NCBI GenBank assembly: GCA_003140175.1
Contig: PLJD01000007.1
Coordinates: 1 to 64,000, forward strand
DNA: 64,000 bases
Origin: Actinomycetota bacterium
GTDB lineage: Bacteria; Actinomycetota; Acidimicrobiia; IMCC26256; PALSA-555
Direction: 5' to 3'
Shown piece after piece: positions 2,290 to 49,197 of this stretch. Position numbers and translations under genes: made by a program. How positions within the stretch are numbered: the first letter of the stretch is position 1; every line of letters starts with the position of its first letter. The notes under the pieces are model-generated. The model was not told the origin of the DNA. It did not search any database and saw only the letters and a program-made list of their open reading frames with translations.

Positions 2290-3576
2290 CTACCCGGAGT
2301 TCGGGGCGCGACGACTCGACCAGTGCCGCCATCCGGCGTCGAGCGCGACCGCGGCGAGCACCACGATCGAGACCTCGGCCGGGGCGCGGAAGCGGATGAT
2401 GCCGTACGCGCCGGCAGCCAGCAGGGTCACGAGCACGACCGGCATCACCAGGGGCCAGCGGGTTCGCCGCTGCCGGCCGAGCACGACGAACCCGACGATC
2501 GCGAGGGGCGCCAGGAGATAGAAGGCGCCGATCCCCGCCCACGACGCCTCGACCGGGCGCCCCTCGACTCGGTCGAAGCGGGCGGTCTGGAACGGCTCGT
2601 AGAGATCCCAGATCCGCCCCACCCGGGCCGCGACCACGACCGGGAGCCGGCCGAGGTGGTCACGCATGTAGGTCAACGCCGCGTGATCCTGGCGGGCCGA
2701 CAGGACCGAGGGGTCCGTGGACGGCGGGACGGCGGTCGAGCAGCCCAGGCTCCAGTAGCCGAGCTCGGGGCCGTGGTAGGTGGCGTCGCAGTTGGCGCCG
2801 AGCAGCAGGCCGCCGTCGCCGGTCGACAAGGTGGTGGGCTTCTGGAAGGTGACGAGGTTGCGCACCACCCAGGGGGACACGACCACCCCGGCCACGACGA
2901 TTCCGAGGACCGCGAGCCCGACCCGGGCCCGGCCGGACCGCGAGCGGGTGATGACCACCGCGGGGACGAGGATCAACAGGACGAAGAACGACAGCTCGGA
3001 GCGGGTCAGCGCGGCGAGGCCGCACCCGACCCCGAGGAGCGTGGCGCTCACCCAGCTCGGCGAGCGCAGGAACCGGTACGTCGCGAGCAGGATCAGCGCG
3101 GTGAAGAGGATCGCCAGCGTCTCGGACATCACGATCCCGCTCGGGATCCACAGGTTCGGGTACAGCGCGGCGAGCACCGCGGCGATGATCCCCACCCGGC
3201 GACTGACGACGACCTCGCCCAGCCAGCCGATGACCCCGACTGCGACCGCGCCGAGGACCGCCATCGTCATGCGCTGGGGCACGGTCCCGCCGTGGATGCC
3301 GAACAGCCAGGTGGCCGGGACCTCGACGAGCGCGGTGAGGGGCGGGTGCAGCGCGCTGACACCCCCCACGACCGGGGTCTGGAACCCGTGCCCGGCGACG
3401 AGTTCGCCGGCCTGACCGACGTAGTAGAAGGCGTCGTAGAAGTTTCTGGTGTCGTACCGGGTGACCGTGAGCACGTACACGACGCGCAAGACCAGCCCGA
3501 CGACGCTGATCCCGAGCAGCGCCGCGACGAAGCGGCGGGACCCCGCGTCGCGGGTCGGCGGGTCTGCTCCCGTCAT
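2290..3576 (-). CDS. Multi-pass membrane glycosyltransferase, family 39/ArnT-like
   Basis: Many TM segments, N-terminal RVVYVLTVTRYDTRNFYDAFYYVGQAGELVAGHGFQTP resembling GT39 proteins. Confidence 0.65.
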   Translation of the reverse strand: MTGADPPTRDAGSRRFVAALLGISVVGLVLRVVYVLTVTRYDTRNFYDAFYYVGQAGELVAGHGFQTPVVGGVSALHPPLTALVEVPATWLFGIHGGTVPQRMTMAVLGAVAVGVIGWLGEVVVSRRVGIIAAVLAALYPNLWIPSGIVMSETLAILFTALILLATYRFLRSPSWVSATLLGVGCGLAALTRSELSFFVLLILVPAVVITRSRSGRARVGLAVLGIVVAGVVVSPWVVRNLVTFQKPTTLSTGDGGLLLGANCDATYHGPELGYWSLGCSTAVPPSTDPSVLSARQDHAALTYMRDHLGRLPVVVAARVGRIWDLYEPFQTARFDRVEGRPVEASWAGIGAFYLLAPLAIVGFVVLGRQRRTRWPLVMPVVLVTLLAAGAYGIIRFRAPAEVSIVVLAAVALDAGWRHWSSRRAPNSG

Positions 3577-4790
3577 CGCCCGCGGGTCAACAGCAGGGCT
3601 CCGGCCAGCGGCCCCCCCCCCGCGCAGGCGACCCCGATCTCGGGGTCGCCGGGGACCTGGCGCTCACCGCCCTCCCCCCACAGCTGCAGGCACGCCTCGT
3701 GCAAGAACCCGAACCCGTGGAGGCGGCCGGCCGAGAGCTGCCCGCCGTGGGTGTTGAGCGGCAGCTCACCCTCCCGGGCGATTCGCTGGCCCCCTTCGAC
3801 GAACGGGCCGGACTCCCCCTTGCCGCAGAACTGCATCGCCTCGAGCCAGCACATCGTGATGAACGAGAACCCGTCGTACATCTCCGCCAGCTGGACGTCA
3901 CTGGGCCGCAGGTCGGTGCGCTCCCACAACTGGGTGCCGGCGTCCTGGCACGCCATCGTGGCGAGGTCGTAGTACTGATCCCACGCCGGTCGGCCGTGGA
4001 ACGCGGTCCCGACCGCCTCGACCTCGATGGGGGGCTTGCGGAGGTCGGCCACGGTGTCGCGACGCGACACGATCATCGCCGTCCCGCCGTCACAGGGCAC
4101 GTCGCAGTCGAAGAGGCACAACGGCGACGAGATCATCCGCGCCGACAGGTAGTCGTCCATCGTCATCGGATCGCGATAGATCGCCTTCGGGTTCACCGTC
4201 GCGTTGCGTCGGGCGTTGAGCGCGATCTGGGCCAGCTGCTCGCGGGTGGTGCCGTACTCGTGGAAGTGGCGGTTGGCGAACATGGCGATCCACACCGCGG
4301 CGGACGGTGCCGAGAACGGCAGGAGCCATTCCATGAACCCGGTGGCCCGGAATCCGCCGCTGCGGCTATCGCCGCCCGGCATCACCGCGGCGCGGCCCTT
4401 CGTGCCTTGCGCGCTGCCTTCGAAGACGGTCCGGAAACACAAGACATGACGGGCCAGCCCGGCGGACACGGCCAGGATCGCGTTGATCACCGCACCGAGC
4501 TGACCGGGAAGCTCAAGCCCGCCGGCGTACCAGCTGAGGTTCAGGCGCAGCGCTTCCTGCACGTCGGTGACGCCCGCCCCCGAGAACCCGGCCGGGTTCT
4601 CCATGCCACCCGGGTACGTCGAGATTCCGTCGATGTCGGTCGGGTTCAGTCCGGCGTCGGCGATCGCGCCGAGGCAGGCGTCGACGGTCAGTTCGAGCGG
4701 GTCTCGGTAGAGGCGTCGCCCGATGTCGGACTGTCCAATGCCGCTCAGGACGGCTCGGCGCTCGCCGAACAGCTCGTCGGACTCGGTCAC
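3573..4790 (-). CDS. Thiolase-fold protein (Ltp2/SCPx-like acetyl-CoA acetyltransferase family)
   Basis: From GTG at 4790: AVLSGIGQSDIGRRLYRDPLELTVDACLGAIADAGL… and NTHGGQLSAGRLHGFGFLHEA. Confidence 0.8.
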   Translation of the reverse strand: MTESDELFGERRAVLSGIGQSDIGRRLYRDPLELTVDACLGAIADAGLNPTDIDGISTYPGGMENPAGFSGAGVTDVQEALRLNLSWYAGGLELPGQLGAVINAILAVSAGLARHVLCFRTVFEGSAQGTKGRAAVMPGGDSRSGGFRATGFMEWLLPFSAPSAAVWIAMFANRHFHEYGTTREQLAQIALNARRNATVNPKAIYRDPMTMDDYLSARMISSPLCLFDCDVPCDGGTAMIVSRRDTVADLRKPPIEVEAVGTAFHGRPAWDQYYDLATMACQDAGTQLWERTDLRPSDVQLAEMYDGFSFITMCWLEAMQFCGKGESGPFVEGGQRIAREGELPLNTHGGQLSAGRLHGFGFLHEACLQLWGEGGERQVPGDPEIGVACAGGGPLAGALLLTRGR

Positions 4791-4848: not shown

Positions 4849-5277
4849 TCACGGCGCGGGCTCGAAGAGCGGGATCCACACCTCGTCCTCAACGTGGGGT
4901 TCGAAGATGACCTGCACCGCCATGCCGATGCGGACGTCGTCGGGCGCACAGTTGACGATGTTGGTGGTCAGGCGCAGATCGTCCTGCTCGACCGGGTGAA
5001 CGATGGCCAGCACGAACGGGACCTCCGGGCCGGGCATCCAGGGCTGATAGTTGATCGAGAACGCCAGCACCTCGGCCCGCCCGGACACCGCCTCGACGCC
5101 GATGTCCTTCGACCAGCACTTCGGGCAGATCACCGCGGGGGGATGCAGGTAGTAGCCGCACTGGCGGCACCGTTGGAAGCGCAGCTCGTCGTCGCGCCCG
5201 CCCTGCCAGAAATGGGCGTTGCGGTCCGTGATCCGGGGCAGGATCCGGAACGGGACGTCACCGGTGGTCGTCGTCAT
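4849..5277 (-). CDS. DUF35 OB-fold / zinc-ribbon acyl-CoA-associated protein
   Basis: CRQCGYYLHPPAVICPKC rubredoxin-like zinc ribbon then OB fold. Confidence 0.85.
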   Translation of the reverse strand: MTTTTGDVPFRILPRITDRNAHFWQGGRDDELRFQRCRQCGYYLHPPAVICPKCWSKDIGVEAVSGRAEVLAFSINYQPWMPGPEVPFVLAIVHPVEQDDLRLTTNIVNCAPDDVRIGMAVQVIFEPHVEDEVWIPLFEPAP

Positions 5278-5635
5278 CAGACTCCTCTTCGAGGTCACGC
5301 TCGGGGTCTCGGGCCGACTTGAAACCTCGGCGGGCGTGCGGGATCGCCTCGACCGCGGGCAGCAGCCCGAAACCGGGGCACGACAGCATGATCGAGCCGA
5401 GGATCTCATCCCAGGTGGCGCCAACCTCACCAGCGAGGCGGGCGTGGCGCTCGACCCCCTCGTGGTTGCGGAGCACGACCGTGCAGACGAGGCGGATGAG
5501 CTCGTGGGTCTTTCGATCGGGGGCCGAGAGCGAATCGATCTGGCTCATCCACGAGTTCTGGGCTTCGTGGAGCGCAGGGAAGACCGCGTGGAGCGGCTCC
5601 TCGAAGGGGAAGGTCCAGTCGTCGCGGGGCGCCAT
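5258..5635 (-). CDS. Carboxymuconolactone decarboxylase family protein
   Basis: LSAPDRKTHELIRLVCTVVLRNHEGVERHARLAGEVGATWDEI, CMD/AhpD-like. Confidence 0.7.
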   Translation of the reverse strand: MAPRDDWTFPFEEPLHAVFPALHEAQNSWMSQIDSLSAPDRKTHELIRLVCTVVLRNHEGVERHARLAGEVGATWDEILGSIMLSCPGFGLLPAVEAIPHARRGFKSARDPERDLEEESDDDDHR

Positions 5636-5637
5636 GA

Positions 5638-6036
5638 TCAGGCGGGGACGAAGACGGGGACGGTGGTCGACTCGTCGAGCTCGCGATAGGCGACCCGCAG
5701 CGCCATCCCCACCGTGAGCGCGTCGGCGTCGCAGTCGACGACGTTGGTCATCATCCGAGGTCCCTCGGCGAGGTCCACCACGGCGGCAACGTAGGGGACC
5801 CGCTCACCGAACGGCGGCAGGTCGTTTTCGTGCACGACCGACCAGGTGTACAGGGCGGCCTGGCCGCTCGCTTCCTCCCAGTCCACGGCGGTGCTCCAGC
5901 ACGCGGGGCAGAACGGACGAGGGTAGAAATGGGCTGCCCCGCAGTCCGCGCAGCGCTTGATGAGCAGCCTGCCGTCGCGGGCCGCGTCCCAGAAGGGCTC
6001 GGTCTCGGGATCGGGCGCCGGAAGGTCGAAGCGCAC
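5638..6036 (-). CDS. DUF35 OB-fold / zinc-ribbon protein
   Basis: CADCGAAHFYPRPFCPAC plus OB-fold sequence. Confidence 0.85.
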   Translation of the reverse strand: MRFDLPAPDPETEPFWDAARDGRLLIKRCADCGAAHFYPRPFCPACWSTAVDWEEASGQAALYTWSVVHENDLPPFGERVPYVAAVVDLAEGPRMMTNVVDCDADALTVGMALRVAYRELDESTTVPVFVPA

Positions 6037-6045
6037 GCCCGGGCG

Positions 6046-6474
6046 CTACCGGGTCGGCAGCGCGGCGACGGCCACGCCACTGACCTTGGCCTCGCCGTTC
6101 CCGTTCACCACCTCGCAGTCGAGGTCGACCCGATGCTCACCGTGCTCGTCGTACTTCTTCTTCACGGTGATCCGGGTCGCGAGCTGCTCGCCGGGCCAGG
6201 TCTGCTTCGTGAAGCGCACCTTGTAGACGCGCAGGCTGCCGACCCCGACGTAGTCGGTGAGCGCCTTGCCGAGCATCCCCATCGTGAACATGCCGTGACC
6301 GAAGACGCTGGGCAGGCCGGCGGCTTGGGCCTGGACCTCGTCGTGGTGCATCGGGTTGAAGTCCCCCGATGCGCCGGCGTAGCGCACCAGATCGGTGCGG
6401 GACAGCTCGTGGCTGAACTCGGGCGCCTGGTCCCCTTCGTGGATGTCATCGAAAAACAGCGGGTTGTCGGCCAT
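6046..6474 (-). CDS. MaoC-like hotdog dehydratase
   Basis: YAGASGDFNPMHHDEVQAQAAGLPSVFGHGMFTMGMLGKALTDY hydratase-2 motif. Confidence 0.9.
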   Translation of the reverse strand: MADNPLFFDDIHEGDQAPEFSHELSRTDLVRYAGASGDFNPMHHDEVQAQAAGLPSVFGHGMFTMGMLGKALTDYVGVGSLRVYKVRFTKQTWPGEQLATRITVKKKYDEHGEHRVDLDCEVVNGNGEAKVSGVAVAALPTR

Positions 6475-6531: not shown

Positions 6532-7842
6532 GTGGGGCAGGCCGGGCCGGTCGACGTCGAGCCGATGCCGCCCCGGGTCGCGGGGCATCTGCCCTGGGTG
6601 GGGTCGGGCGTGGCCCTGCTGCGCGACCCAACCCGGTTCTTCGCTGCCGCTCGCCAGCGCCTCGGCGACACGTTCGTGGCCGACGTGTTCGGCTTCCGCC
6701 TGTTCTGCGTGTTCTCGCCGGATGGGGTGCGGCGCGTCTACGAGGTCCCCGAGCGCGAGGCGAGCTTCGGGCTCGCCACCTACCGGCTCATCGGGTTCAA
6801 GCTCCCGCCCGAGCTGCTCGCCGGGCGCCGGACGACGCCCCATCACCTCTTCGGGGCGCAGCGGGTCGAGGGCTACCTGGCCGACCTGGAGCGGGCAGTC
6901 GACCTCGAGCTCGACGCGTTGGGCGACGGAGGGACCTTCGAGGTGTTCGCGGAGTGCCGCCGCCTCGGGCACCGGCTCGGGTTCGCGTCGTGGGCCGGGA
7001 TCGAAGCCGCGTCGCCTCGCTACCTCGAACGGCTGGTCCGTCTCTTTGACCGCATCGACAGCAGCGAGGCGTTCGTCCGTCCCGCGCAGGCGTTTCGCAC
7101 CTGGGCGACCCGCCGCGCCGGCGAGCGGCGGGCGATGCACGGGATCGAGGCGGTCGTCGCCGAGATCTGGGCGCAACGCCAGGCGCAGCGCGCAACGCGG
7201 GGCGACTTCCTCGAGCAGCTCGTCGCCTCCTACGCCGACCTGGCACCCGACGAGCAGCTGGTCGGCGCAGCCCGCGACGTGATCATGCTCCACGTCGGCG
7301 CCCAGTCGAACCTGTACGCCGCGTTGGCGTGGACCCTCGTGCACGTCCTCGCCGATCCGGAGGTGCTCGACCGGGTCCGCGGCGGCGACGACGCCTACCT
7401 GGAGCGCTGCGCGAGCGAATCGATCCGCCTCGCCCAACGGTCGATCACGCTGCGCGAGGTGCTGCGCCCGATCGAGGTCACCGACGAGGAGCGGACCTAC
7501 CGGCTGAGCCCGGGGACGTTCCTCACCACCATGCTGAGCGTGACGAACACCACCGCGGCGCCCGGCCTCGACCGCTTCGACCCCGCCCACTACGACGGGC
7601 GTCGCCTCGCACCGAGCGTCGCGGTGCCCACCAAGGAGGTGGTGAGCACGTTCGGGCACGGGCCGCACGCCTGCCCCGCGGCTCGCTTCTCGATCTCGGC
7701 GATCCGCATCGCGGTGCGGCGTCTCGTCGACGCCTACGACCTCACCTCCGACGGTGCACACCCCGAGCCGCGCCGCCGGCAGCTCGGGGGCGTCGCACGC
7801 GCCGCACGGCCGCTCTCGGTCCGGTACCGGTCCCGCGCGTAG
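6532..7842 (+). CDS. Cytochrome P450
   Basis: Heme-binding FGHGPHACPAARF; I-helix-like region; GTG start at 6532. Confidence 0.85.
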   Translation: MGQAGPVDVEPMPPRVAGHLPWVGSGVALLRDPTRFFAAARQRLGDTFVADVFGFRLFCVFSPDGVRRVYEVPEREASFGLATYRLIGFKLPPELLAGRRTTPHHLFGAQRVEGYLADLERAVDLELDALGDGGTFEVFAECRRLGHRLGFASWAGIEAASPRYLERLVRLFDRIDSSEAFVRPAQAFRTWATRRAGERRAMHGIEAVVAEIWAQRQAQRATRGDFLEQLVASYADLAPDEQLVGAARDVIMLHVGAQSNLYAALAWTLVHVLADPEVLDRVRGGDDAYLERCASESIRLAQRSITLREVLRPIEVTDEERTYRLSPGTFLTTMLSVTNTTAAPGLDRFDPAHYDGRRLAPSVAVPTKEVVSTFGHGPHACPAARFSISAIRIAVRRLVDAYDLTSDGAHPEPRRRQLGGVARAARPLSVRYRSRA

Positions 7843-8540: not shown

Positions 8541-9329
8541 ATGAGCACCGCCGCCAACCTCGATTTCGACCGGCTCCTCGCCGACCAGGTGGCGCTCATC
8601 ACCGGCGCGGCGTCGGGTCAGGGCCGAGCCGCGGCGCTCCTGTTCGGCGCGCAGGGGGCGAAGGTCGTGATCGCCGACGTCAACGACGACGGCTCGGCCG
8701 AGACGGTGCGTCTGCTCGAAGAGCGCGGCGCGGAGGGAATCGCGGTGCACGCCGACGTGTCCCTGCGGCCCGACATCGACCGCATGGTCGAGGCGACCGT
8801 GGAGCGCTTCGGCCGCCTCGACGTCCTCTACAACAACGCGGCCGTGCAGATGAGCGGCCGCCTGGTCGACTGCACCGAGGAGGAGTGGGATCTCACGATC
8901 GCCACCAACCTGTCGGCGATCTTCTGGGCGTGCCGGGCGGCGCTGCCCGCCCTCCTCGACGGGGGCGGGAGCATCATCAACACCGCGTCGACGCTCGGCC
9001 TCATCGGCTCGGAGGGCTACGCGGCGTACGGCGCCGCGAAAGCCGGCCTCGTCCTGCTCACCAAGCAGCTCGCGGTCGAATACGGCCCGGCCGTGCGCGC
9101 CAACGTCATCGCACCCGGCTCGATCGACACCCCCCGGTTCCGCAAGGTGCTCGAGAAGACCCCCGGCGCCGCGCAGTTCGTCGAGGGCCTCGAGCGCACG
9201 ATCCCGGTGCGCCGCCTCGGCACCGCCGAGGACGTCGCGGCGATCGCCCTGTTCTTGGCCAGCGACCAGTCGGCCTACATCAGCGGCGCCGTACTACCCG
9301 CCGACGGTGGACTGGCGGCGCTGCGATGA
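8541..9329 (+). CDS. SDR family oxidoreductase
   Basis: ITGAASGQGRAAALLFGAQG…NNAA…YGAAKAG. Confidence 0.9.
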   Translation: MSTAANLDFDRLLADQVALITGAASGQGRAAALLFGAQGAKVVIADVNDDGSAETVRLLEERGAEGIAVHADVSLRPDIDRMVEATVERFGRLDVLYNNAAVQMSGRLVDCTEEEWDLTIATNLSAIFWACRAALPALLDGGGSIINTASTLGLIGSEGYAAYGAAKAGLVLLTKQLAVEYGPAVRANVIAPGSIDTPRFRKVLEKTPGAAQFVEGLERTIPVRRLGTAEDVAAIALFLASDQSAYISGAVLPADGGLAALR

Positions 9330-10087
9330 GCCTCACCGGGGTGGCGCTAGTCACCGGCGGCGCGGCCGGACTCGGCGAGGCGATCGTGCACCGGCTCGCC
9401 CGCGAGGGTGCGACCGTCGTGGTCGCCGACGTCGACGGTCCCGGTGCCGAGCGGGTCGCCGCCGCGGTCACCGCCACCGGCGGGCACGCGGCCGCGGTCT
9501 CCTGCGACGTCACCTCCCGGGCGCAGGTCGACGACGCGGTGCGCGTCGCCGCGAACCTCGGTCCGCTGCGGGTGTTGATCTTGTCGGCCGCGATCGAGAG
9601 CCGCCGGAGCGTCCTCGACTGCTCCGACGCCGACTGGCAACAGATCCTGGACGTGAACCTCAAAGGCCCGTTCCTCTGCATGCGCGCCGCGATCCCGCAC
9701 CTGGTGGCCAACGGCGGCGGCTCGGTCGTCGCGCTGGGCTCCACGCTGGGTCTCATCGTGGCGCCCGGCCACCCGGCGTACTGCGCGAGCAAGGGCGCGC
9801 TCGTGAACCTCTGCAAGCAGGCGGCCATCGAGCATGCGCCGGACAAGGTGCGCGTGAACGTGGTCGCCCCTTCGGCGACCGACACCGGGCTGTTCATCCG
9901 CTTCTCCGAGCAGGCACCCGACCCCGAGGGGCTCCGCCGCCACATCGCGGAGCTGAACCCGATGCACCGGCTCGGCACCGCGCAGGAGGTGTGCGACGCG
10001 GTCATGTTCCTGGCGTCCGACGCGTCGACCTACACCAGCGGGTGCGTGATCCCGATCGACGGCGCGCTGGCCGCCCGACGGATGTGA
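9326..10087 (+). CDS. SDR family oxidoreductase
   Basis: VTGGAAGLGEAIVHRLA…YCASKGALVNLCKQ; ATGA overlap with upstream SDR. Confidence 0.9.
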   Translation: MSLTGVALVTGGAAGLGEAIVHRLAREGATVVVADVDGPGAERVAAAVTATGGHAAAVSCDVTSRAQVDDAVRVAANLGPLRVLILSAAIESRRSVLDCSDADWQQILDVNLKGPFLCMRAAIPHLVANGGGSVVALGSTLGLIVAPGHPAYCASKGALVNLCKQAAIEHAPDKVRVNVVAPSATDTGLFIRFSEQAPDPEGLRRHIAELNPMHRLGTAQEVCDAVMFLASDASTYTSGCVIPIDGALAARRM

Positions 10088-10120
10088 ACCCGATCAGGCC
10101 CCGCTCGGAGGCAGCTCACG

Positions 10121-11191
10121 GTGCATAACGGGCTGCGTATTCTCGACGCGGACGCACACGTCGTCGAGCCCGGCGAGCTGTTCCGCGCGTGGACGCCGGC
10201 CGGCCGAGCGGTCCTGGATCTACCCGCGACGACCCCGATCGAGCTGTGCGGCGACTCGTCGCGGCTCGCCGACCAGCTCGAGCACGGCTTCGACGCCGCG
10301 TCGTACCTGCGGGCCATGGATGCCCAGCACATCGACGCCGCGGTGCTGTTCCCCTCGATGGGACTCTTCGTCCCGTTCCTCCCCGAGCTCGACGCGCAGG
10401 AATCGGCCGGCGCGTGCCGCGCCTACAACGAGTGGGCCGCGAGCTACTGCGCGGTCGCCCCGCGTCGCCTGAGCGCGATCGGGGTGGTGCCCCAGCGCGC
10501 ACCGGCCGCGGCGGCCACCGAAGCCCGCCGGGCCGCCCAGCTCGGGCTCGTCGGCGTCCTCGTGCGCCCCAACCATCTGGCCGACGAGTATCTCGACCAC
10601 GCCGCCTACGACCCGCTCTACGACGTCTTGGAGGAGACGGGTCTGGTGCTCGGCGTCCACGAGGCGCTCGGGGTGCGTGCCCCCACGATCGGGCGCGACC
10701 GGTTCGAGGGCTTCGCCGCCCGCCACGCCTGCTCGCACCCCCTCGAGCAGATGGCGGCCGCCACGGCGTTGCTGCTCGGCGGGGTCTGCGAACGTCACCC
10801 GAGCCTGCGGATCGCGTTCTTAGAGTCCGGAACGGGCTGGCTCCCGTACTGGCTCGCCCGCCTCGACGAGCACCGCGAGTGGATGCAGACCAGCGAGTGC
10901 TCCGGGCTCTCGCTCGCGCCGAGCGAGTACTTCGACCGCCAGTGCGTCATCTCGTCCGATCCCGAGGACACCCTGGCCGGGTTCGTCATCGACCGGGTGG
11001 GCGCCGACCACGTCATGTGGGCCAGCGACTTCCCCCACCCCGACGCCGCGTTCCCCGACGCGGTCGAGCAGTTCCTCGCCCACCTCGGCGGCGTCGACCT
11101 CGACGCCGCCGCCCGTCGGGTGCTCTGGGACACGCCCCTCGCCTTCTACCGACTCGCCGACCGCTTCGAGCCCCAGGAGGCGCGCCCATGA
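10121..11191 (+). CDS. Amidohydrolase family (amidohydro-rel 2) metal-dependent hydrolase
   Basis: DADAHVVEPGELF…VLGVHEALG…VMWASDFPHPD. Confidence 0.85.
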   Translation: MHNGLRILDADAHVVEPGELFRAWTPAGRAVLDLPATTPIELCGDSSRLADQLEHGFDAASYLRAMDAQHIDAAVLFPSMGLFVPFLPELDAQESAGACRAYNEWAASYCAVAPRRLSAIGVVPQRAPAAAATEARRAAQLGLVGVLVRPNHLADEYLDHAAYDPLYDVLEETGLVLGVHEALGVRAPTIGRDRFEGFAARHACSHPLEQMAAATALLLGGVCERHPSLRIAFLESGTGWLPYWLARLDEHREWMQTSECSGLSLAPSEYFDRQCVISSDPEDTLAGFVIDRVGADHVMWASDFPHPDAAFPDAVEQFLAHLGGVDLDAAARRVLWDTPLAFYRLADRFEPQEARP

Positions 11192-33172: not shown

Positions 33173-34342
33173 GTGACCGAGCACGCGCTGCGCGCCGCAG
33201 CCGCCATCGTCGGGGTCGCCGACGCCGTGTCCCCGACTGGTGAGCTCGACCTCCACGGCCGGGTCCTCGAGGCCAAGGTGGTCCGTGAAGCACTCGCCGA
33301 CGCCGGTCTCACGATCGGCGACGTCGACGGCATCTGCTACGGCGGTTCGGCGCCAGGCGTCGCGGAGTATCTCGGGATCCAGCCGCGCTTCATGGACGGG
33401 ACGATGACGGGAGGGTCGAGCTACGAACTCCACGTCGAGCACGCGGCCGCGGCGATCGCCTCCGGGTTGGGTGACGTCGTCGTCGGGCTGTACGCCGCGA
33501 CGCCGCGCTCGGATCGCGCCCGCCGAGGCGCACGCGGGCGCCTCGGCACTCCGCCCGGGCCGAACCCCATGTTCGAATGGGAGATGCCGTACGGATTGCG
33601 GCTGCCCATTGGAGCCTACGCACTCGCGGCGAGCCGCCACATGGCCGTGTACGGCACGACGTCCGAGCAACTCGCGCAGATCGCGGTCGACGCCCGCCGC
33701 TGGGCGTCGATGAACCCGCGCGCGCGATACCAACAGTCGATCACGATCGACGACGTGCTCGCGTCACCGATGCGGGCGTCGCCGTTGCACCGGCTCGACT
33801 GTTGTCTCGTCACCGACGGCGCGGGCGCGTTCGTGATGACTTCGGCGGCGCGAGCTCATAGCCTCGCGAAGCCTCCCGTCTACGTGCTCGGCGCGGCGTC
33901 GTGCAGCGATCACTCGATGATCACCGCTATGCCCGACCTCACGGTCACCGCCGGCGCCATCTCCGGTCCGGCCGCGTTCAAGCAGGCGGGGATTACGACG
34001 GCCGACGTCGATGTGCTCATGAGCTACGACTCGTTCACCATCACGGCACTGTTGCACCTCGAAGACCTCGGATTCTGCGCCAAGGGCGAGGGTGGCGCGT
34101 TCGTCGAGGACGCCAAGCTCGGCCCAGGCGGCGCGCTGCCGATGAACACAAACGGCGGCGGATTGTCGTACACGCACCCTGGGCAGTACGGCATGTTCTT
34201 GCTGGTCGAAGCGACGCGGCAGTTGCGCGGTGAGTCCGGCGAGCGCCAGCTGCGCGGTCCACAGATCGCCGTCGCGCACGGATCGGGTGGGGTACTTTCG
34301 ACCATGGGGACGGTCGTGCTCGGCGCAGAGGCGACGAGATGA
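33173..34342 (+). CDS. Thiolase-fold protein (Ltp/SCPx-like)
   Basis: AAAIVGVADAVSPTG…VVREALADAGLTIGDVDGICYGG…YGTTSEQLAQIAVDARRWASMNPRA. Confidence 0.85.
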   Translation: MTEHALRAAAAIVGVADAVSPTGELDLHGRVLEAKVVREALADAGLTIGDVDGICYGGSAPGVAEYLGIQPRFMDGTMTGGSSYELHVEHAAAAIASGLGDVVVGLYAATPRSDRARRGARGRLGTPPGPNPMFEWEMPYGLRLPIGAYALAASRHMAVYGTTSEQLAQIAVDARRWASMNPRARYQQSITIDDVLASPMRASPLHRLDCCLVTDGAGAFVMTSAARAHSLAKPPVYVLGAASCSDHSMITAMPDLTVTAGAISGPAAFKQAGITTADVDVLMSYDSFTITALLHLEDLGFCAKGEGGAFVEDAKLGPGGALPMNTNGGGLSYTHPGQYGMFLLVEATRQLRGESGERQLRGPQIAVAHGSGGVLSTMGTVVLGAEATR

Positions 34343-34743
34343 GCCCGCTGCTCGAGCCGCCGGCGTCGGACGAGGTCGCGCCGTTCTGGGACGCGACGCG
34401 ACGCGGCAAGCTCGTCCTGCCCTGGTGCCGGTCGTGCGAGCGGCCGTTCTGGTATCCACGCGCCACGTGTCCACGATGTCTCGGCGATACCGTGGAATGG
34501 CGCCAGGCGCGCGGCGACGGCACCGTGTATGCGGTGAGCGTCCAGCACCAGCCCGGACCTGGACGCGACGCCGCCGACGGGCCGTACGCGGTCGCGCTCA
34601 TCGACCTCGACGAGGGCGTGCGCGTGATGGGCAACGTCCTGGCGTGCGCGGCCGCGGACGTCCACGTCGGCATGTCGGTTCGCGTCACTTGGCAGGCCCT
34701 GTCTGACGGAAGGCAGCTCCTGCAATTCGCACCCCGAGAGTAA
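34339..34743 (+). CDS. DUF35 OB-fold / zinc-ribbon protein
   Basis: CRSCERPFWYPRATCPRC. Confidence 0.85.
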   Translation: MSPLLEPPASDEVAPFWDATRRGKLVLPWCRSCERPFWYPRATCPRCLGDTVEWRQARGDGTVYAVSVQHQPGPGRDAADGPYAVALIDLDEGVRVMGNVLACAAADVHVGMSVRVTWQALSDGRQLLQFAPRE

Positions 34744-46612: not shown

Positions 46613-48022
46613 GTGACCCCCGGTGTGCAGCTCCTCGCCGTCGGGGCGGCGGCGCCGAGCTGGCGCCTGGCCGCCACCGAGGTCGGCGCCGCGTGGGGCC
46701 GTCCGGGCGGACGGGGCCAGGCCGCGGTGTGCGCCCCCGACGAGGACACCCTCACGCTGGCCGCCGAGGCGGCCCGCCGGGCGCTGCTCGCCTCGGGCCT
46801 CCAGACCGACATCGTGGACGGGCTCTGGTGGGGCACCAGCCGGCCACCCTTCGCCGAGGGACCGAGCCACGCGGTGCTCGCCAGCGCGGTCGGCCTGTCG
46901 CACCGCTCGGGCGGCGCGCTCTTCGCCGGCTCGTCCCACGCCGGAATCGAGGCGCTGTTCGGCGCCGCCGACGCGGTCGGAGCCGGCACGGTCCGGGTGG
47001 CGCTGGTGGTCGTCTCCGACGCCATCGTGCCCGGGCTCGGGACGAGCTGGGAACCCCGCGCCGGGGCCGGCGCGGCGGCGCTCGTGCTCGTGTCGCACGG
47101 CGGCGCGGCGTCGCTGGGCGCCCGGGTCACCCGCACCCATCCCTACCTCGACCGCTACCGGGGCGACGACGAGACCGCCACCCGGGATCTCTACGACCCG
47201 CGCCTGTTCCGCGAGGAGATCTTCTTGCCCGCGATGCGCGAGCTCGGCGAGCAGCTCGGCACCAACGACATCGACCGGTGGTCGCTCCCCGACCCCGACG
47301 GGCGCCTCGGCGCCGCGCTGGCCCGCCAGCTCGACGCGGGGACACCGGCGTCCGCGTCGGTGTACGCGGCCCTGGGTGACACGGGAGCGGCCGCGGCGCT
47401 GCTCGGCGGGGTGTGCGCCCTCGACGCGGCGGGCACGGTCGGGATCGTCGGCTGGGGCGGCGGACGCGCGACCGGCGTCACCATCACCGCCCGCGAGCCG
47501 GTGCCGGGCGCTGCCGCGGTGGCCGACGTGCTCAAGGGTGGTCGACCCGCGACGTACGCCGCGGTGCTCCAGGCCCGACGTCAGCTCGTCGCCTCTGGCG
47601 AGACGGTCCCGATGGGCGTACCCCCTCAGAGCGCGCAGTTCGTGCGCGGCGCCGACGAGATGCTCGGCCTGCTCGGGGCCCGCTGCGTCGACTGCGGGAC
47701 GATCAACACGCCCCCGTCGATCCACCCCCACTGCATCAGCTGCGGCAGCGCCAAGTTCGTGCTCGAGCCGCTCGCCCGCCACGGCCGCGTCTACACCTTC
47801 GTCGTGAACCAGACCATGCCGGCCCCGTTCGTCGCACCCTTGCCGCTGGCGGTCATCGACCTCGACGACGGCGCCCGCGTCATGCTCCAGGTCACCGAGC
47901 ACGAAGGGACCCTCGAGATCGGCAGCGAAGTCGAGCTCGTCGTGCGCCGCTACGCGCACGAGCGGGGCGCCCCGGTCTACGGCTACAAGGCGCGCCCCTA
48001 CGCGATCCGGGAGGACCAATGA
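46613..48022 (+). CDS. HMG-CoA-synthase/thiolase-fold protein fused to C-terminal DUF35 domain
   Basis: HMGS-like N-terminal fold; C-terminal CVDCGTINTPPSIHPHCISCGS plus OB fold. Confidence 0.75.
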   Translation: MTPGVQLLAVGAAAPSWRLAATEVGAAWGRPGGRGQAAVCAPDEDTLTLAAEAARRALLASGLQTDIVDGLWWGTSRPPFAEGPSHAVLASAVGLSHRSGGALFAGSSHAGIEALFGAADAVGAGTVRVALVVVSDAIVPGLGTSWEPRAGAGAAALVLVSHGGAASLGARVTRTHPYLDRYRGDDETATRDLYDPRLFREEIFLPAMRELGEQLGTNDIDRWSLPDPDGRLGAALARQLDAGTPASASVYAALGDTGAAAALLGGVCALDAAGTVGIVGWGGGRATGVTITAREPVPGAAAVADVLKGGRPATYAAVLQARRQLVASGETVPMGVPPQSAQFVRGADEMLGLLGARCVDCGTINTPPSIHPHCISCGSAKFVLEPLARHGRVYTFVVNQTMPAPFVAPLPLAVIDLDDGARVMLQVTEHEGTLEIGSEVELVVRRYAHERGAPVYGYKARPYAIREDQ

Positions 48023-49197
48023 GCTGGAACCGGGTCGCGGTGGTCGGTGCGGGGCTCATCAAGTTTGGGGAGCTCTTCGACCAGAGCTACGAGCAGATGG
48101 CCGCCGGCGCGTTCGCCGCCGCGGTCGACTCGGTCGATCACGGCTTCGAGCCCTCGCAGGTTGAGGCGGCGTTCGTCGCCACCCAGCGGGGCACGCTCTG
48201 GGGCCAAGAAGGCATCGGTGGGAACACGGTGCCGTCGGCGATCGGACTGGCCGGGATTCCGTGCACGCGGATCGAGAACGCGTGCCCGTCGGGGTCGGAT
48301 GCATTCCGCGTCGGCGCGATGGCCGTCGCGAGCGGCGTCCATGACGTCGTCCTCGTCATCGGCGTCGAGAAGATGCGCGACAAATCGGCCGAGGAGGGTC
48401 TCCTCGCCCGCGCCGCGGCGGGCCACCCGATCTTCACCCGTGGTGAGACCGCGCCGGTGCTGTTCGCACCGTTCGCGACGCGTCACATGCACGAGTTCGG
48501 CACCACGCGCGAGATGCTGGCGTCGGTGGCGGTGAAGAACCACTACAACGGCGCCCGCGACCCGTACGCGCACTTCCAGAGCGAGATCACGGTCGAGGAC
48601 GTCCTGGCGTCGCCGTCGGTCTGCTCCCCCCTCCATCTCCTCGACTGCTGCCCGCAGACCGACGGGGCGGCAGCCACGCTGCTCGTGCGAGCCGACATCG
48701 CCGAACGCTTCACCGACCATCCCGTGTACGTAGCCGGCTTCGGTGTCGCCACCGACCATCCGTACCTGCACGAGAAGTCCAGCTTCGTGGGCCTCAAGGC
48801 GACCCAGCTCGCCGCCGAGCGCGCGTACGCGATGGCCGATGTCAGCCCGGCTGACATCGACTGCGCCGAGGTACACGACTGCTTCACGATCACCGAGATC
48901 CTCGACATCGAGGACCTCGGCTTCGTCGACAAAGGCAAGGGCGGCGTCGCCTCCCTGGACGGGGAGACGTCGCTCACCGGGCGGATCCCGATCAACACCT
49001 CGGGTGGGCTCCTCGCCAAAGGGCACCCGATCGGCGCCACCGGCGTCGCCCAGCTCACCGAGTGCTGGTGGCAGCTGCGGGGCGAAGCCGGCGACCGGCA
49101 GGTGGAACTCCGCCACGGCAACGCCCTCCAGCACAACGTGGGTGGGCGGGGCTCGGGCGTCTCGGTGATCAACATCTTGACGACGAACCAACCGTGA
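48019..49197 (+). CDS. Thiolase (SCPx-like)
   Basis: IENACPSGSDAF nucleophile motif, NTSGGLLAKGHPIGATGVAQ. Confidence 0.95.
   Translation: MSWNRVAVVGAGLIKFGELFDQSYEQMAAGAFAAAVDSVDHGFEPSQVEAAFVATQRGTLWGQEGIGGNTVPSAIGLAGIPCTRIENACPSGSDAFRVGAMAVASGVHDVVLVIGVEKMRDKSAEEGLLARAAAGHPIFTRGETAPVLFAPFATRHMHEFGTTREMLASVAVKNHYNGARDPYAHFQSEITVEDVLASPSVCSPLHLLDCCPQTDGAAATLLVRADIAERFTDHPVYVAGFGVATDHPYLHEKSSFVGLKATQLAAERAYAMADVSPADIDCAEVHDCFTITEILDIEDLGFVDKGKGGVASLDGETSLTGRIPINTSGGLLAKGHPIGATGVAQLTECWWQLRGEAGDRQVELRHGNALQHNVGGRGSGVSVINILTTNQP

Follow-up and report, generated by a model that had tools for sequence, protein, structure and literature searches.

The closest known relatives of the system described here are two side-chain aldolases, Ltp2-ChsH2(DUF35) of Thermomonospora curvata (PDB 6OK1), acting on the steroid C3 side chain, and Sal-Shy(DUF35) of Comamonas testosteroni (9MYR), acting on the bile-acid C5 side chain. 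In TcLtp2, Tyr294 serves as the base, Tyr344 as the acid, and His296 as the oxyanion residue; CtSal employs Tyr302 and Cys304, with Gln352 at the place of Tyr344 and Gly at the place of the thiolase nucleophile (PMC12329534). The igr operon is arranged in the order dehydrogenase-hydratase-aldolase, and its DUF35 is indispensable for the aldolase activity (PMC12502768). For DitF, encoded in the abietane diterpenoid (dit) cluster, the only annotation is that of a putative sterol carrier-like protein; strains with insertions in ditF cannot grow on resin acids (PMC13063091). Environmental actinobacteria have many thiolase-fold proteins that go by the names "lipid-transfer" or "thiolase family", most of them without an assigned role.

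Organization of the locus

The window, that is, the whole stretch of DNA analyzed, covers the initial 64 kb of the 90.9-kb contig C6 in the genome of a soil actinobacterium (4.25 Mb, 128 contigs), whose nearest named relatives are Acidimicrobiia MAGs. The thiolase-fold gene, for which the earlier note had given the correct position, belongs to a tight minus-strand operon, MaoC-DUF35A-CMD-DUF35B-thiolase, in which DUF35B overlaps the stop codon of CMD (Table 1). The neighbors listed in that note were recovered: both DUF35 proteins carry PF12172 and PF01796, MaoC is PF01575, and the assignment to the CMD family, weak for the window protein alone (PF02627, E 0.01, below the cut-off), holds for its homologues, 17/17 of which match PF02627 (best 5.5e-9) and the profile of which finds PDB 2af7. 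In Acidimicrobiia, the CMD-like gene is conserved in the position immediately preceding DUF35B, and a CMD-family gene is also found near the member on a Caulobacter plasmid (L142). Linkage to the P450-like gene was observed in the nearest orthologue, L058, only.

Table 1. Genes of the thiolase-fold operon and its immediate neighbors in the window
Feature	Position	Strand	Remarks
PMT_2 membrane glycosyltransferase	2290..3576	-	Overlaps the thiolase stop codon; near orthologues also have one downstream
Thiolase-fold protein, probable CoA-thioester retro-aldolase subunit	3573..4790	-	405 aa, GTG start; Y305-D-G307-F and R356; nucleophilic Cys absent
DUF35B zinc-ribbon/OB protein; probably the obligate partner that pairs with the thiolase-fold subunit	4849..5277	-	Adjacency and fusions
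Small PcaC/CMD-like protein, CxxC missing	5258..5635	-	Homologue and profile searches
DUF35A zinc-ribbon/OB protein, probably MaoC-associated (ChsH2-like pairing)	5638..6036	-	
Single-domain MaoC (R)-hydratase, HadB-like	6046..6474	-	GDFNPMHHD motif intact
Cytochrome P450-like gene, divergent	6532..7842 (start 6532 or 6565)	+	Heme motif FGHGPHACPAAR (by eye)

Predicted fold and active site

The AF2 model of the thiolase-fold protein (pLDDT 86, pTM 0.90) agrees with the fold that had been assigned from the sequence. Upon Foldseek search, the top match was Ltp2-ChsH2(DUF35) 6ok1 (E 1.9e-36, TMt 0.86), followed by 4u4e and further matches including CtSal 9myr (fourth) and 6esq. TcLtp2 (6ok1_A, 2.1e-58) was the best PDB match also by sequence, and the ChsH2 DUF35 of 6ok1 was the first PDB match for both DUF35A and DUF35B; among the PDB matches of the window proteins were also 6esq and 5m3k, which are DUF35-containing complexes. 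The gene content and the predicted fold together place the protein within the thiolase superfamily fold accompanied by a zinc-ribbon/OB partner gene.

The active-site features of thiolases are, in contrast, replaced. In the alignment with Pyrococcus furiosus thiolase (IEAACASGG), Gly96 occupies the site of the nucleophilic Cys of CxSG and Arg356 the site of the His of GHPxG, and the HDCF/HDAF/NEAF motif is YDGF. The motifs ELPGQLGAVINAILAVSAG and NTHGGQLSAGRLHGF, in which the earlier note had seen no Cys and no GHPxGATG, respectively, are both present in the protein. Alignment with TcLtp2, consistent with its published numbering, pairs Y305 with Y294, G307 with H296, R356 with Y344, D230 with C215, and C389 with T375; the Tyr base is kept, while Y344 is replaced by R356 and H296 by G307. 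Y305, G307, and R356 are each conserved in 90/90 sequences of the clade and D230 is invariant in the same set, and six plasmid-borne members read afterwards and outside this set (Mycobacterium, Streptomyces, two Rhodococcus, Massilia, and Caulobacter) all carry YDGF and GGQLSxGR. This conservation indicates that the thiolase machinery is absent and that the acids of the known aldolases are replaced by invariant Arg and Gly. As judged from these alignments, the active site of the clade is different from those of both Ltp2 and Sal.

The claim that the protein lacks a catalytic Cys was challenged by a single candidate, Cys389, which had been missed earlier and which sits in a thiolase-like CxGGG motif. 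Its role as a retained thiolase acid/base was rejected because Cys is kept at this position in only 10/90 homologues.

Phylogenetic placement and distribution

The window protein scored 257 bits against PRK07855/NF005892, the curated cut-off of which is 469, and its identification as Ltp2 was rejected on this cut-off and on the two exchanged catalytic residues (Tyr344 to Arg and His296 to Gly, 90/90). Identification as Sal was also rejected, with Gly in place of the essential Cys304 of the YDCY motif. The same genome encodes a true Ltp2 (L012; 611 bits, above the cut-off; YDHF and GEAYIHG), preceded by a frame (L005) with a MaoC-like and then a DUF35 part as in ChsH2 (by eye), and therefore the window system is an additional one, distinct from the steroid C3 aldolase.

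In a maximum-likelihood tree, made by a quick search and with some long outgroup branches, the proteins form a clade of their own (SH-aLRT 100, branch length 1.15), with TcLtp2 and four own-genome paralogues as the sister group (SH-aLRT 94). A 53% paralogue at C101:162014, a DUF35-thiolase fusion, falls in the same clade. The clade is present in 44 of 61 close relatives and in 11 of 297 genomes across the phylum, and also in Pseudomonas, Halopseudomonas, Marinobacter, Sphingobium, Rhodococcus, and Streptomyces; the frequency among the relatives and the conservation of the operon argue that the system is not a chance assembly. The fixed signature YDG[FY]...GGxLSxGR separates the clade from true thiolases, Ltp2, and Sal, and corrects the annotation of its members.

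In the source genome (4.2 Mb), thiolase-fold genes and DUF35 domains each number about 20 (L010-L028). Paralogues with unusual active-site pairs, L015 (YDAF and GEGY), L017 (YDCF and AEGY), and L014 (YDHF and SEAY), may be other uncharacterised aldolases. Two further DUF35/thiolase-fold sets are located in the window, at 33281-34695 and 47768-49107: one is 4u4e-like (YDSF, THPG, nucleophile Cys absent) and has genes for acyl-CoA dehydrogenase, AMP-ligase, SDR, and MaoC nearby; the other includes an SCP2-like thiolase in which both CPSG and HDCF are intact. The "Bifidobacterium breve" titles of the MAGs with loci L061, L078, L079, and L109 look wrong, the genes being Acidimicrobiia-like.

Partner proteins and orthologous loci

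Nearly every locus has DUF35B directly before or after the thiolase gene, and in about 14 of them, with Rhodococcus, Williamsia, Mycobacteriaceae, and Acidimicrobiia represented, the two are joined in one stop-free frame. This arrangement is the strongest evidence that DUF35B is the partner subunit, and the pairing is considered probable; an apparent fusion in L073 was dropped, with X's in the assembly at the joint. AF2 modeling of a natural DUF35B-thiolase fusion (L075), run for the interface with a 10-row alignment, gave a pTM of 0.32. A full set of zinc-ribbon cysteines is present in 74/78 DUF35B (CxxC-CxxC) and in 8/8 DUF35A. The pairing with two DUF35 proteins that had been suggested earlier is, therefore, borne out by adjacency and fusion for DUF35B, but not for DUF35A, which is confined to part of Acidimicrobiia and for which partner-level evidence was not found; fusion of MaoC with DUF35A was seen in none of seven loci tested.

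The complete order MaoC-DUF35A-CMD-DUF35B-thiolase was found in the Acidimicrobiia loci L058, L060, L061, L063, L064, L068, and L089, among others. In L064, a gene near the operon, at 9240-10745 (+), encodes a thiolase-like protein that carries a TLP1/DUF35-like OB domain at its C-terminus. In most such Acidimicrobiia loci, acyl-CoA dehydrogenase genes flank the operon, and among these is a fused one of double length; the best PDB matches of the single-length enzyme were 4x28_A, which we take to be the cholesterol enzyme ChsE4-ChsE5, and 6wy9. The layout of the close orthologues is the dehydrogenase-hydratase-aldolase order of igr. In the source genome, the dehydrogenase pair is located on contig C89, unlinked to the operon in the assembly, and its assignment to the operon there was rejected. 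Some loci (L072, L093, and L139) have aldehyde dehydrogenase genes immediately downstream, in keeping with an aldehyde product. Many family members, those of the dit cluster included, are without an adjacent MaoC.

Relation to DitF

The locus L135 of Pseudomonas vancouverensis Dha-51 encodes, in this order, dioxygenase beta and alpha, FAH, SDR, DUF35, the thiolase-fold protein, IclR, MFS, FAH, extradiol dioxygenase, SDR, and ferredoxin (some by eye). This order corresponds to the published list of dit genes, ditA H G F R E D C B A3 (PMC12628601), indicating that, by its position, the Pseudomonas member corresponds to DitF. The gene directly preceding the ditF-position gene encodes a DUF35 protein (L135 5549-5983), likewise in other Pseudomonas and Halopseudomonas loci; a DUF35 between ditG and ditF is absent from the gene list in PMC12628601, and this protein may be the missing partner of DitF. 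The window itself contains no dit cluster.

Predicted function

The thiolase-fold protein together with DUF35B is proposed, with moderate confidence and on sequence-based grounds, to be a CoA-thioester retro-aldolase with Tyr305 as the base, acting after hydration by MaoC. MaoC, with DUF35A, would hydrate an enoyl-CoA to a 3-hydroxyacyl-CoA, and the thiolase-fold protein and DUF35B would assemble as a heteromeric acyl-CoA C-C lyase, in which Tyr305 of YDGF would deprotonate the 3-hydroxyl so that the C2-C3 bond breaks by retro-aldol cleavage, with a carbonyl compound and a shortened acyl-CoA as the products. Arg356, at the place of Ltp2 Tyr344, probably acts on the enolate, by stabilising or protonating it, or else binds a carboxylate of the substrate; the clade-specific Asp230 may assist. 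The known mechanism leaves no room for thiolysis, because the nucleophile site has no Cys. Since the acids Tyr344 and Cys304 and the oxyanion His296 are all absent, the chemistry need not match that of Ltp2 or Sal. The analogy to an aldolase module drawn in the earlier note is thus well supported by the fold, the gene layout, the fusions with the partner, and the Tyr retained in the YD motif, but the full catalytic set of Ltp2 is not inherited. The substrate would be a bulky terpenoid- or steroid-like CoA ester; the branched acyl-CoA proposed previously found no specific support.

Arg356 in place of the thiolase His, the acyl-CoA dehydrogenases and SDRs as frequent neighbors, and the dit-cluster members without an adjacent hydratase could also be explained by a water- or CoA-dependent retro-Claisen enzyme on 3-ketoacyl-CoAs (e.g., cyclic diketones), working without covalent acyl-enzyme and with Arg356 polarising the keto group. 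We regard this as unlikely, because the nearest characterised relatives, Ltp2 and Sal, are aldolases with the same Tyr-Asp motif, where thiolases carry His-Asp, and because the hydratase belongs to the operon in Acidimicrobiia. Decarboxylation of substrates of the malonyl-CoA or beta-keto-acid type, with the carboxylate held by Arg356, is quite improbable: the slow malonyl-CoA decarboxylase activity of TbSLP, a point in its favor along with a thiolase fold devoid of the nucleophile and the Arg and Asp invariant in the clade, was not shown by the closer relative CtSal (PMC12329534), and the neighboring genes give no sign of malonyl substrates. Equally improbable is a forward aldol/Claisen condensing enzyme or DUF35-using acyl transfer, as in PhlABC and the archaeal thiolase/HMG-CoA synthase, even though DUF35 partners are present in such complexes (the 6esq and 5m3k matches) and a PMT glycosyltransferase is included in the operon. 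PhlC and the HMG-CoA system work with Cys nucleophiles, which are missing here, and the linked genes are mostly catabolic (dioxygenases, acyl-CoA dehydrogenases, and CoA transferases). Least probable of all is a non-catalytic scaffold or lipid-binding protein, suggested by the loss of every classical thiolase catalytic residue and by the historical names "lipid-transfer" and "sterol carrier-like", since the active-site motifs are invariant (90/90) over phyla, unlike those of a decayed enzyme, and resin-acid growth is lost in ditF mutants (PMC13063091).

Within the retro-aldolase interpretation, the clade could, tentatively, represent a third independent solution to retro-aldol cleavage of CoA thioesters on the thiolase fold, based on a Tyr base and Arg and probably Asp230 instead of Tyr/His or Cys, with wide use on terpenoids and other polycyclic compounds, and could account for the missing reaction of DitF. 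The clade signature gives a concrete hypothesis for this reaction.

Comparison with known systems

Benzoylsuccinyl-CoA thiolase BbsAB (7PXP) has the thiolase fold and a DUF35 partner in common with the window system, but differs in its HDAF and GHPxG thiolase motifs and is distant in the tree. Ltp2-ChsH2 shares the fold, the DUF35 partner, the lack of the thiolase nucleophile, the base Tyr in Y-D-x-F, and an operon with dehydrogenase and MaoC hydratase. The window protein is, however, far under the PRK07855 cut-off and has YDGF instead of YDHF and Arg356 instead of Tyr344; in addition, its DUF35 is stand-alone and not a ChsH2 fusion, and the operon includes an extra CMD protein and a second DUF35. 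Sal-Shy likewise shares the fold, the DUF35 partner, and the Tyr base, and Sal and the window protein both have Gly at the nucleophile site and the NTHGGQLS motif. Sal is different in the required Cys304 (YDCY) and Gln352, where the window protein has Gly307 and Arg356, and Shy in the Cys3His1 set, where the window DUF35 has four Cys. With respect to DitF of the Pseudomonas/Burkholderia dit cluster, the Pseudomonas members of the clade are located exactly at the ditF locus, as assigned by gene order (ditA2 A1 H G - DUF35 - F R E D C B A3). The dit loci examined are different from the window operon in having no MaoC, DUF35A, or CMD beside the ditF-position gene, but the ditF-position members of Pseudomonas are about 52% identical to the window protein and carry the same YDGF/GR signature.
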